Below are positions 32,444 through 52,420 of a DNA stretch of 64,000 bases, one piece after another; position 1 is the first letter of the stretch, and every line of letters begins with the position of its first letter. A program made the translations under genes and the position numbers. The notes under the pieces were generated by a model that worked only from the letters and a program-made list of their open reading frames with translations, ran no database searches and was not told the DNA's origin. The stretch is taken from NCBI GenBank assembly GCA_946535985.1, contig CAMNDY010000007.1, positions 1-64,000 on the forward strand, written 5' to 3'. This stretch comes from an uncultured Treponema sp. (GTDB lineage: Bacteria > Spirochaetota > Spirochaetia > Treponematales > Treponemataceae).

Positions 32444-32977
32444 AGTTTCACGTGAAACTGTCTTTACTGATAATAATGAAATATGAAAAAACATCTGGCT
32501 CTCCTTGGGGAAGTTTCTGGACTCTATAGTTTTTAGAGCTGCTCGGATTGATGTTTCACATGAAACATTGTTTGAGCGGAAAAACAGAAAGAAAATAGGA
32601 TCTATCAGGTTTGCATACGAATGAATAAGGAAAAGAGTCTTTTGGATTTGTTTCATGTGAAACAAAGGTTCGTTATCCAGATGTAGTGTTTCATGTAAAA
32701 CAAAGCAGGATTCTTTGGTAGTGAAGGTTTTTTTGAAATGAATGTTTCACATGAAACGGAAAAGGATTTTTCAAAAAAGCTTATAGCGTTTGTGTTTCAC
32801 ATGAAACAATCAGGTTGAAAAGGGAAGGGGGAGAAAGTGTTTCATGTGAAACATATGCTGAAGTGTTTGTAGAGTAGGTTAGTATTGAAGGTGTTTATTT
32901 TTTTTTGTTGTTGTAAAAATGTTTCATGTGAAACGTTGTTGGTTTTTAAGATCTTTATTTTGGTTTCATGTGAAACT
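32444..32977. promoter_or_regulatory. parS: parS-like site cluster (9 sites)
   Basis: 16-mers at 32444, 32552, 32649, 32687 (degenerate), 32743, 32793, 32838, 32920, 32962 matching TGTTTCAYRTGAAACA. Confidence 0.85.
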
Positions 32978-33010
32978 TTTTGTATAAATAAGAAGTTGTG
33001 AAGAGTAAAG

Positions 33011-48024: not shown

Positions 48025-49410
48025 ATGCCTCGAAACTCCGGACATGCAGATCTTCCTCTTCATACGGGTACAGTGCCGCGTTGGCTGGCCGACAGAATGA
48101 TGGTGCTTGGTACGCTCATCACAGAATCTCTGGTGGAAAATTTTGGACCTGATGAAGTTCTTGTGCGTCTGAGCGATCCCCTCTGGTTTCAGTCCTTTGG
48201 CGCGGTTATGGGTATGGACTGGCACAGCTCCGGAATTACCACAAGCGTTATGTATGCTCTTAAGCGTGGGCTCAATCCCAGGGCAAAGGAGCTTGGCATT
48301 TATGTCTGCGGAGGCCGGGGAAAATATTCTCGCATGACACCGGACGAGCTTCTCCAGATTGCAGGACAGGAAGGCTTAAATGGAGACGAGCTGGTCCGTA
48401 ACAGTAAGCTTGTTGCCAAGGTAGATAACAATGCCGTGCAGGATGGCTTTCAGCTTTATCAGCATAATTTTATTTTAACGCGCAGCGGGCAGTGGGCCGT
48501 TGTTCAACAGGGAATGAATACCGCAGAAAAAAAGGCCCGCCGTTATCACTGGTGTTCGTCGGACCTTCGTTCTTTTGTGGAGGAGCCGCACACCGCAGTA
48601 GTTGGAGATAATCGTGGAAAGATTTTGAACCTCACCGACAAAAAAGCTGATGGGGCGCGCAATTCAATTCTTGAAATGTCTCATGAAAACCCCGAGCGCA
48701 TGATAAAAGAAATTGAGCAGATTGGTAAACCGGCGAGTGAGATTATTTTGCTCCAGGGAGGGACGGTTTCAAAGAAAACTGTGTCATTCCCGGGCTCGAC
48801 CCGGGAATCTCTTTTTGAGAGAGATTGTCGGGTCAAGCCCGACAATGACAGGCAGTTGTCTGAGAATGACATAATCCAGGGTACTCTCTTCCCCGAGTTA
48901 GAAGAAACTAACACCCCAAGCCAAATCCAATCTACTGGCCGCTCCATCATCATGCCTGCCCACCACGACGTACAGGCTCAGGATGTAGACCTCAAGCGTT
49001 TAGGCGGAGTGTTAGCCACAGCTTACGAAAGTCAGCCACAAGATTTTGAAAGCCTGCTGCTTACCCCTGGACTTGGCCCGCGTACTCTTCAGTCCCTTGC
49101 ACTTGTAAGCGAAGTAATTTACGGAACCCCAAGCCGCTTTACCGATCCGGCCCGATTCAGCTTTGCACACGGTGGCAAGGACGGACATCCTTTCCCGGTT
49201 CCTCTTAAGATTTACGATGAGTCAATCCGGATGCTGCGGGACAGCATAGAAAAATCAAAGCTTGGGTACAAAGATAAATCGGATTGTATACGCCGTCTGC
49301 ACGAAACGGCGCTGAACATAGAAAAAAACTGCGCTCCACAGGTAGACTTTGATGCTGCCATAAAGTTTGAGCGCCAGCATAGTAAAGAATGGGATGGTAA
49401 AACCGTATGA
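48025..49410 (+). CDS. DUF763 family protein, interrupted in frame by an R2 doublet
   Basis: PRNSGHADLPLHTGTVPRWLADRMMVLG; HDVQAQDVDLKRLGGVLATAYE; insert VSFPGSTRESLFERDCRVKPDNDRQ. Confidence 0.85.
   Translation: MPRNSGHADLPLHTGTVPRWLADRMMVLGTLITESLVENFGPDEVLVRLSDPLWFQSFGAVMGMDWHSSGITTSVMYALKRGLNPRAKELGIYVCGGRGKYSRMTPDELLQIAGQEGLNGDELVRNSKLVAKVDNNAVQDGFQLYQHNFILTRSGQWAVVQQGMNTAEKKARRYHWCSSDLRSFVEEPHTAVVGDNRGKILNLTDKKADGARNSILEMSHENPERMIKEIEQIGKPASEIILLQGGTVSKKTVSFPGSTRESLFERDCRVKPDNDRQLSENDIIQGTLFPELEETNTPSQIQSTGRSIIMPAHHDVQAQDVDLKRLGGVLATAYESQPQDFESLLLTPGLGPRTLQSLALVSEVIYGTPSRFTDPARFSFAHGGKDGHPFPVPLKIYDESIRMLRDSIEKSKLGYKDKSDCIRRLHETALNIEKNCAPQVDFDAAIKFERQHSKEWDGKTV
48782..48850. repeat. R2 inverted doublet inside the DUF763 CDS
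   Basis: tgtcattcccgggctcgacccgggaatct ... agattgtcgggtcaagcccgacaatgaca. Confidence 0.9.
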
Positions 49411-49876: not shown

Positions 49877-52420
49877 ATGAATTCTAAGCTTGATGAATAT
49901 CCTATAACTCCTTTTCTCGATGAGATTTGTGACAGTCTTAAAAAATCTCCTTCGCGATATTTGATTTTGACTGCGGAAACTGCGGCGGGTAAATCTACTG
50001 TTTTGCCGCTGGCCTTGCTCCAAAAATTCAGCGGAAAAATTATTATGACAGAACCTCGTCGAATCGCAACGTTAGGTGTGGCTAACAGAGTGAGCGAATT
50101 GTGGGAGACTGCCTGCGAGGGAAGTCCTGATGAAGTTGGCTACAAGATTCATCTTGAAAATAAAATTACAAAAAACACCCGGCTGGAAGTTGTAACAGAA
50201 GCAATTTTGGTAAGGCAGCTGCAAAGCGATCCGGCGCTGGAAGATTATAACCTTGTTATTCTGGATGAGTTTCATGAGCGGTCTGTGAACACAGATTTAG
50301 CGCTGGCATTTTTAAAAGAAGCCATGCAGCTGCGGGATGATTTATATGTAATTATTATGTCTGCCACAATTGATACAGACAGGCTACAAAAGTATCTGGG
50401 GGACGACACTCCTGTAATGAAGATACCGGGAAGGCAGTTTCCGGTAAAGGTGGTGTATGAGGCAGGGAAAAGTGTAGAGGAAGTTGTTATAGAGGAATTG
50501 AATCAAAAGAGAGATTCCCGGGTCAAGCCCGGGAATGACAAAAGGCAGCCCTTCGACAGGCTCAGGGACCACAAGCATTTCAGGAGCAGTGCGGTCCCTG
50601 AGCTTGTCGAAGGGACTGTAGAAGATGGAAACATCCTCGTCTTCCTCCCAGGCATTTCCGACATACGCAAGGCACAGGACAAACTTTTAGCAACCGGCCT
50701 CTTTGATGCAGACAGTGACAATGAACTCTGCATTCTTCATTCAAGTATAACGCTGCAGGAACAAAAACGAATAATAACTCCCCCACATACAGGCGAGCCA
50801 GAAAAACGTCGCGTTATCCTTTCTTCTGCAATTGCAGAAACTTCGCTTACAGTACCGGGAGTTACAACAGTAATAGACTCAGATCTTGCCCGTGTAAACA
50901 GTCTGGATTTGAATACAGGTATGGAAAAACTCACAACTCAAACTGAAAGCGAGTTTTCCGCAGAACAAAGAAAGGGACGTGCAGGACGACTTTGTCCCGG
51001 AACCTGTATTCGTCTCTGGAACCAGCATGATGCGCGTATAAAAGATTTTCCACCGGAGATTTTACGGGCAGATCTTGTGCCGCTTGTACTTGAATGCAGT
51101 GAGCGCGGAGTTTTTAATGTAGACGGAATTGACTGGCTGGACCCACCTTCTAAAGCTTCTTGGGATGAAAGTAAGTCGCTTTTGCTGGAACTTGGAATGA
51201 TTAAAACAGACGGACATATTACTCAAAAAGGAAAAGCTGCTTTAACTCTTGGACTTCATCCGCGGCTTGCGGGAATTGCACTTGCAGCTTTTGATAAACA
51301 AAGCGCCAGCCTTTTAGAAGAAGGCAGACAGCTTTTGATTAATTTTGGTTCCTATGCTCAATCTTCATCAGATATAAAGAACCGCTATATAAATGACCTT
51401 GAGCGCCGTTTAAAAGCCTGCCAATATATAAATGATTTTGATAACAAAAGAGACTTCCTCATTTTGTGCGGATATCCCGACAGACTTGCAAAAAGAACAA
51501 GCGAACCGGGCAAAGATCCTGCAGAATATCAGTTTGCAGGGGGAAGACAGGCAAAATTATACCTGAATGATAACGCCGGAGGGCGTAGTAACAAAAAGAA
51601 CCACGCAAAAACCTCGCTTGCCCCACAATACCTTGTAGCTCCGGATGTACTTTCGGGCCAGAAAGAGGCTGTCATTTTTGATTTTGTAGAACTGTCCGAA
51701 CCAGCAATAACAGATTATCTTGAAAAACATTCTACAATCCGTCAGGTATGTTCTTTCGAAAACGGTATTCTTCAAAAACAGGAAGAAAAATGTTTTGGTA
51801 AAATTGTCCTGTCAACTAAAAAAATCCAGACTTCAAAAGAAGATTATGCCCAAGCCTGGCTGACTGAAATTTCAGAAAAAGGAATAAGCTGCCTCCCCAC
51901 AAATGAAAAAGTCGAAAGCCTGCTGCTTAGAACAGAGTTTATAGAACAGCAAAAATCAGACAATCAAACAGCACAAACAATTCACAACAATTTATATTCC
52001 CGTTTACAAACTACAGCCTCGGAATGGCTCATTCCTTTTATGGCAGGAAAAACTCAACTTACCGCTGCAACAATTTACGACGCCCTCTACTGGTATCTGG
52101 AGGGAGCTCAGACAGACAAGCTTGCTCCGGAAAGTATTACTCTTGAAAATGGCCGCCGCGTTAAAGTAAAATACGAAAAGCTGGACCAGATTCGCCCTGT
52201 TATTGAAATTATTATTCAAAGAATTTTCGGCTGCTTTACTACTCCGCAAATCTGTGAAAAAAAAGTTTTGCTGCGGCTTCTTTCTCCTGCAAGCCGACCC
52301 CTTCAGGTAACCGAAGATCTTGAAGGTTTTTGGACCGGCGCCTGGGTAGATATTTGTAAAGAAATGAAAGGACGGTATCCTAAGCATAATTGGGATTATA
52401 GGGTGGTGGAAAAGGATTAA
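49877..52420 (+). CDS. hrpB: HrpB-like DEAH ATP-dependent helicase with in-frame repeat insertion
   Basis: LTAETAAGKSTVLPLAL; LVILDEFHERSVNTDLAL; SATIDTD; QRKGRAGRLCPGTCIRLW. Confidence 0.85.
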   Translation: MNSKLDEYPITPFLDEICDSLKKSPSRYLILTAETAAGKSTVLPLALLQKFSGKIIMTEPRRIATLGVANRVSELWETACEGSPDEVGYKIHLENKITKNTRLEVVTEAILVRQLQSDPALEDYNLVILDEFHERSVNTDLALAFLKEAMQLRDDLYVIIMSATIDTDRLQKYLGDDTPVMKIPGRQFPVKVVYEAGKSVEEVVIEELNQKRDSRVKPGNDKRQPFDRLRDHKHFRSSAVPELVEGTVEDGNILVFLPGISDIRKAQDKLLATGLFDADSDNELCILHSSITLQEQKRIITPPHTGEPEKRRVILSSAIAETSLTVPGVTTVIDSDLARVNSLDLNTGMEKLTTQTESEFSAEQRKGRAGRLCPGTCIRLWNQHDARIKDFPPEILRADLVPLVLECSERGVFNVDGIDWLDPPSKASWDESKSLLLELGMIKTDGHITQKGKAALTLGLHPRLAGIALAAFDKQSASLLEEGRQLLINFGSYAQSSSDIKNRYINDLERRLKACQYINDFDNKRDFLILCGYPDRLAKRTSEPGKDPAEYQFAGGRQAKLYLNDNAGGRSNKKNHAKTSLAPQYLVAPDVLSGQKEAVIFDFVELSEPAITDYLEKHSTIRQVCSFENGILQKQEEKCFGKIVLSTKKIQTSKEDYAQAWLTEISEKGISCLPTNEKVESLLLRTEFIEQQKSDNQTAQTIHNNLYSRLQTTASEWLIPFMAGKTQLTAATIYDALYWYLEGAQTDKLAPESITLENGRRVKVKYEKLDQIRPVIEIIIQRIFGCFTTPQICEKKVLLRLLSPASRPLQVTEDLEGFWTGAWVDICKEMKGRYPKHNWDYRVVEKD
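50512..50614. repeat. R2 + inverted R1 doublet inside the hrpB CDS
   Basis: R2 50512-50540; R1 50549-50570; R1 inverted 50593-50614. Confidence 0.9.

Follow-up and report, generated by a model that had tools for sequence, protein, structure and literature searches.

The hrpB gene of an uncultured Treponema species raises the question of how a helicase gene came to hold a cluster of palindromic repeats within its reading frame, and what became of its product. The window, the whole stretch of 64,000 nucleotides that was analyzed, comes from a host that is probably a gut Treponema, and probably a rumen one, judging from its relatives. A first-pass annotation had placed an R1/R2 cassette at 50512-50614, in frame in an HrpB-like helicase. 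The cassette is indeed present: a single R2 palindrome and two R1 palindromes in inverted orientation, all in frame in hrpB, occupy 50511-50614; only the left boundary differs, as the R2 start falls at 50511-50514 depending on the tail setting (Table 1).

The cassette and the HrpB protein

The reading frame is continuous, as had been proposed, and the product is a true HrpB by TIGR01970, Pfam, and fold. The protein scores 560.5 bits against the TIGR01970 equivalog cut-off of 546.15 bits, contains DEAD, Helicase_C, and HrpB_C (PF08482, E 6e-32) domains, and has E. coli HrpB (6EUD/6HEG) as its top fold match. The gene is under purifying selection: dN/dS is 0.14 and 0.10 between the window species (G000) and two repeat-bearing sisters (G008 and G026, respectively), with dS about 1.1, indicating that hrpB is maintained. 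The frame stays open through the cassette, which reads RDSRVKPGNDKRQPFDRLRDHKHFRSSAVPELVEG (residues 212 to 246), and the insert peptide runs RDSRVKPGNDKR...VPELVEGTVEDGNILVFLPG. On the minus strand, R2 is TGTC-ATTCCCGGG-CTTGA-CCCGGGAAT-CTC, in which the TGTC tag precedes a stem formed by ATTCCCGGG and CCCGGGAAT around a 5-nt loop. The R1 pair forms a 22-bp hairpin (-50 kcal/mol, z -10; whole cassette, -73).

Table 1. Coordinates of hrpB, its repeat cassette, and a neighboring repeat, numbered from the first letter of the window
Feature	Position	Strand	Basis
hrpB, ATP-dependent RNA helicase, 847 aa, frame intact	49877..52420	+	TIGR01970, Pfam, fold
Inserted coding stretch, about residues 212-247	50510..50617	+	Orthologue alignment, AlphaFold
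Single R2 palindrome, read as DSRVKPGND	50511..50540	-	Sequence, exact pattern match, genome-wide consensus
R1 palindrome, first arm, CCCTTCGACAGGCTCAGGGACC, read as PFDRLRD	50549..50570	+	Pattern match
22-bp spacer between R1 arms, HKHFRSSA, differs among species	50571..50592	+	Orthologue comparison
R1 palindrome, second arm, opposite orientation, read as VPELVEG	50593..50614	-	Pattern match, folding
R2 dimer in frame inside DUF763 gene 48025-49410 (PF05559)	48782..48850	+	G015 orthologue gap

The insert had also been assigned to the linker ahead of the second RecA domain, and alignment with E. coli HrpB, the orthologues, and an AlphaFold model all agree with this placement. Aligned stretches end and restart at residues 188 and 212 of E. 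coli HrpB and at residues 192 and 247 of the Treponema protein; the gap between 192 and 247 thus locates the insert between the RecA domains. In the AlphaFold model, built with 27 orthologues (mean pLDDT 85), residues 216 to 248 fall below a pLDDT of 50, one of only two such stretches, and are predicted to form a disordered loop that follows helix 200-215 and precedes strand 252-256 of RecA2. These comparisons confirm an in-frame repeat insertion at the RecA1-RecA2 linker of HrpB. The insert is apparently translated, adding a disordered loop of some 35 residues, and HrpB has probably kept its function despite it.

R1 and R2 copies across the genome

R1 (CCCTTCGACARGCTCAGGGACC) and R2 (TGTCATTnnCGGGCTTGACCCGnnAATCT), palindromes that look like selfish DNA, are both present in many copies in the 2.78-Mb genome. 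Whole-genome searches returned 235 matches for R1 (at most 2 mismatches) and 183 for R2 (at most 1 mismatch), and reversed-pattern controls returned none, so their abundance is far beyond chance. A census of 1.93 Mb contained 267 copies (143 R1 and 124 R2). By a criterion that 70% of random positions pass (a frame open for at least 30 codons on each side, with coding-like flanks), 54 of these are in frame in 44 coding-like ORFs, comprising 45 of the 143 R1 copies and 9 of the 124 R2 copies. Both families avoid genes, R1 far less than R2 (p 6e-7). The hrpB cassette is additional to this count; the gene lies below the codon-score threshold of the criterion, and the census is therefore conservative in that respect.

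Intragenic R1 copies are read as VPEPVEG (20), PSTGSGT (14), LRQAQG (8), and SLSLSKG (3), a bias toward the first two frames (p 7e-6 versus uniform); the PFDRLRD frame of the hrpB R1 is otherwise absent among them. Pfam families were found in 36 of 40 scanned repeat-bearing ORFs, and the repeats lie mostly outside or between domains. Between-domain cases include CobW, GH43, GH3, MutL, CarA, an ABC-ATPase pair, a shikimate dehydrogenase-kinase fusion, and an XPB-like helicase, and repeats within domains occur in LGT, UxaC, UvrD, ValRS, a pseudouridine synthase, and an RNA methyltransferase. In a comparison covering about a quarter of the genome of a relative (G015), the orthologues have gaps at the repeat in a GH3-like protein (17 aa), the DUF763 protein (13 to 23 aa), and a C60 ORF (10 aa). 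In other genes, the repeat fills a variable segment of comparable length, and this is not by itself proof of insertion.

Several further observations concern these repeats. An HrpA-like paralogous helicase of the same genome (L098:15052-17691) carries an in-frame R1, read as ALRQAQG. A uracil-DNA glycosylase (L051:3017-3814) contains opposite R1 arms in the same place in two species, read as VPEPVEG in G000 and as PSTGSGT in G015. The R2 dimer near hrpB shows a weak match to Wolbachia sRNA 46 (34.6 bits; gathering score, 65.3). A possible relation of R1 orientation to replication (49 versus 27, p 0.015 at 10 kb) was dropped because it is weak and depends on window size (0.06-0.08 at larger sizes) and because both orientations are mixed in the actinobacterium Plantibacter. 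Elsewhere in the window, positions 32537-32979 hold several GTTTCACATGAAAC-like inverted repeats, which we take to resemble ParB parS sites.

Orthologues and the origin of the insert

An orthologue alignment had been suggested as the check on this insertion. Compared with G015 and the majority of the genus, about 37 residues are inserted, and the repeat-free orthologues are shorter exactly here, rather than equal in length. Among the genomes compared at this site, which are fragmented drafts, the G015 protein (70% identical) reads KSVVVAVREALRASREGNILVFLPG and is without 37 residues, and most other members of the genus are similarly short. In the G008 protein (79% identical), which reads ...LERPFDKLRDHNGPAIPELVEGSSKKGNILVFLPG, an R1 pair occupies the same codon position and R2 is absent; the G026 protein (84% identical) reads KSVASVVPELVEGPACHGNILVFLPG, with a single R1 arm left. 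In all three repeat-bearing species (G000, G008, and G026), the last R1 arm ends four codons before the GN of GNILVF. A few relatives have unrelated long linkers (L007, L026, and L028), and the site therefore tolerates changes in length. A homologue in G003 (L005) is broken by a TGA and a frame change, which could reflect pseudogenization or faulty assembly.

The explanation that we regard as very probable is that REP-type families spread and that an R1 pair entered the hrpB linker ancestrally, where it was tolerated and came to be translated as a disordered loop. R1, usually as one arm or an inverted pair, and R2, of CGTC type, would have spread through the Treponema genome by copying. A single insertion of an R1 pair into the RecA1-RecA2 linker, with the frame kept, would have preceded the split of the three species; R2 would have been added in the window species or lost by its sister, and one R1 arm would have been deleted in the third species. 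We propose that the insert, near-neutral in its effect, was tolerated because the linker is exposed and flexible and because the repeats can be read without a stop in 4 to 5 of 6 frames. The product would be a helicase with a disordered loop that probably still functions.

The uniformity of the R1 arms counts against this explanation, as it is at odds with neutral drift since one old insertion. Within the arms, all 12 of 12 codons, a small sample, are without a synonymous difference between species, compared with 58% of comparable codons being identical elsewhere (P about 0.0015), and none of 535 runs of 12 codons elsewhere in hrpB is fully identical. Silent identity of this kind points to repeated entry at the site, to gene conversion by the many copies elsewhere, or to a constraint acting on the DNA. 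Repeated insertion would make the linker a hotspot that R1 and R2 entered independently in each species, a scenario to which we give some credence while thinking it the less probable. It would account for the lack of silent differences between species in the arms in spite of a dS of about 1.1, and it has parallels in the opposite R1 arms at one uracil-DNA glycosylase site and in Rickettsia, where different types of Rickettsia palindromic element (RPE) occur at the same locus (PMC3767692). However, the 3' junction falls on one identical codon in the three species, the R1 flanks show no evident target sequence, and gene conversion among the copies, which number more than 100, would be just as able to preserve identical arms.

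Alternatively, the insert might be regulatory rather than neutral, its very stable hairpin slowing translation or being cut in the mRNA. The folding energies of the R1 pair and the cassette and the silent-site conservation are in keeping with such a role, but we think it improbable: most congeners are without the insert, one species has lost an arm, inserts occur in unrelated genes and in different frames, and Rfam yields nothing above the gathering score at the cassette. Repeats can misjoin assemblies, and the source assembly is a fragmented draft of 148 contigs with 86% completeness. The cassette might also have arisen by the joining of unrelated contigs, or hrpB might be a pseudogene whose frame is open by luck. 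Such an origin is very hard to reconcile with a gene that runs uninterrupted and keeps its frame to either side of the cassette, R1 at the same codon in two independent assemblies, a dN/dS of 0.10 to 0.14, and a score above the TIGR01970 cut-off.

Distribution of the repeats and relation to known families

R1 is patchy within the genus, with about 203 copies in G019, 181 in G000, 102 in G008, 43 in G026, 10 in G015, and few or no copies in most other members; R2 follows another pattern, with 214 copies in G019 and 194 each in G000 and G005. Exact copies of the R1 pair are present in genomes of rumen Treponema and Bacteroidales, in one Flavobacteriales genome, and in the isolate Plantibacter sp. 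VKM Ac-2880 (L155, L159, L164, and L175), a cultured actinobacterium in which R1 reaches 316 copies, some of them arranged as short tandem arrays. R2-like sequences are found in alphaproteobacterial plasmids and in a Treponema succinifaciens plasmid. A Microbacterium uvrC gene (L221:2035-3999) contains, in frame, a pair resembling R1 inside the region that matches the UvrC RNase H domain. A search of phage records gave no match to the repeats; exact R1 is present in 14 IMG/VR viral contigs (L207-L220), a possible carrier between species.

A RAYT transposase (PF01797) was considered as the mover and rejected. Searches confined to the Y1_Tnp family, in a set that includes several incomplete genomes, gave no hits in G000, G008, G019, G026, G029, G015, and the RGIG Treponema genomes, nor in Plantibacter, and control genomes were positive. 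This agrees with the absence of a dedicated transposase for CGTC REPs (PMC3733652). Tentatively, R1 could be an uncatalogued, horizontally spreading palindrome, verbatim in Spirochaetota, Bacteroidota, and Actinomycetota, that has a non-RAYT mover, is unusually well tolerated in coding sequence, keeps its arms uniform even in genes, and repeatedly supplies disordered linkers to proteins. A literature search, limited to the text of a paper library, gave no paper with the R1 sequence.

Events of this kind, in which a REP inserts in frame, are already known, and intragenic REPs and RPEs have been described, including in repair and pseudouridine synthase genes (PMC3733652, PMC3767692, PMC2229807). 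The Treponema case is a new and unusually rich example; our literature search found no earlier report of in-frame palindrome insertion in rumen Treponema. In-frame palindromes are best known from obligate intracellular Rickettsia, and here they occur on a similar or larger scale in a gut Treponema, in genes that include DNA repair and RNA modification functions (mutL, uvrD, UDG, mnmE, and pseudouridine synthase). Since sister species show the empty, pair, and half states of the hrpB site, the birth and decay of new protein linkers become directly traceable, and the R1 pair in a cultured actinobacterium offers a tractable host in which to seek the mover. The richness in a gut spirochete, the visible intermediates, and the cross-phylum occurrence of R1 make the system worth following.

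Among known repeats, R2 fits the CGTC-tagged REP superfamily of Di Nocera et al. (2013), judging from its consensus. This superfamily, to which RPE-4 and RPE-6 of Rickettsia have been assigned, is known from Spirochaetes and inside genes, and has a stem of 8 to 9 bp starting with A-T pairs, a loop of 4 to 5 nt, and a 3-nt tail that is mostly CCA (PMC3733652). The R2 consensus, ATTnnCGGG-CTTGA-CCCGnnAAT, likewise has a 9-bp stem starting with AT and a 5-nt loop, follows a TGTC variant of the tag (0.99-1.00 in 124 copies, found with a search pattern that contained the GTC and not the leading T), and forms dimers. Unlike CGTC REPs, it ends in CT plus a variable base rather than CCA, and many copies are single; as most, not all, CGTC REPs fit CCA, the CT tail weakens membership and does not exclude it. 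R1, whose consensus ends in GnGGTC and GGCC and has neither a CGTC nor a GTAG tag, is by its sequence a different family from R2. Most R1 copies are single, and the inverted pairs, with short, variable spacers of 14 to 82 bp and a hairpin, resemble the REP doublets of REPINs (Bertels and Rainey 2011, PMC3116915). The REPIN/RAYT system differs in its Y1_Tnp/RAYT gene, not found in R1-bearing Treponema or Plantibacter, and in its figures for repeats within genes: about 31% of R1 copies are in frame in ORFs, versus 14 of 1,067 gene-overlapping 16-mers in P. fluorescens (PMC3116915).

The first-pass annotation had drawn an analogy to the Rickettsia palindromic elements, which holds and for R2 is closer than analogy (tag, stem, first base pairs, loop, and ATGAC). 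As with RPE-1 to RPE-7, described by Ogata, Claverie, and co-workers, the palindromes lie in frame inside conserved protein genes, in hrpB and in other ORFs, the inserts fall in loops, and orthologues share a locus while possibly carrying different elements (PMC3767692, PMC2229807). R2 also contains the ATGAC motif reported for RPE-4, RPE-6, and RPE-7 (PMC3767692), its comparison with RPEs being one of motif and CGTC architecture. In contrast to RPEs of 100 to 150 bp, R1 and R2 units are 22 to 30 bp long and pairs about 60 bp, R1 is another sequence, and the host is a Treponema rather than an obligate intracellular rickettsia.
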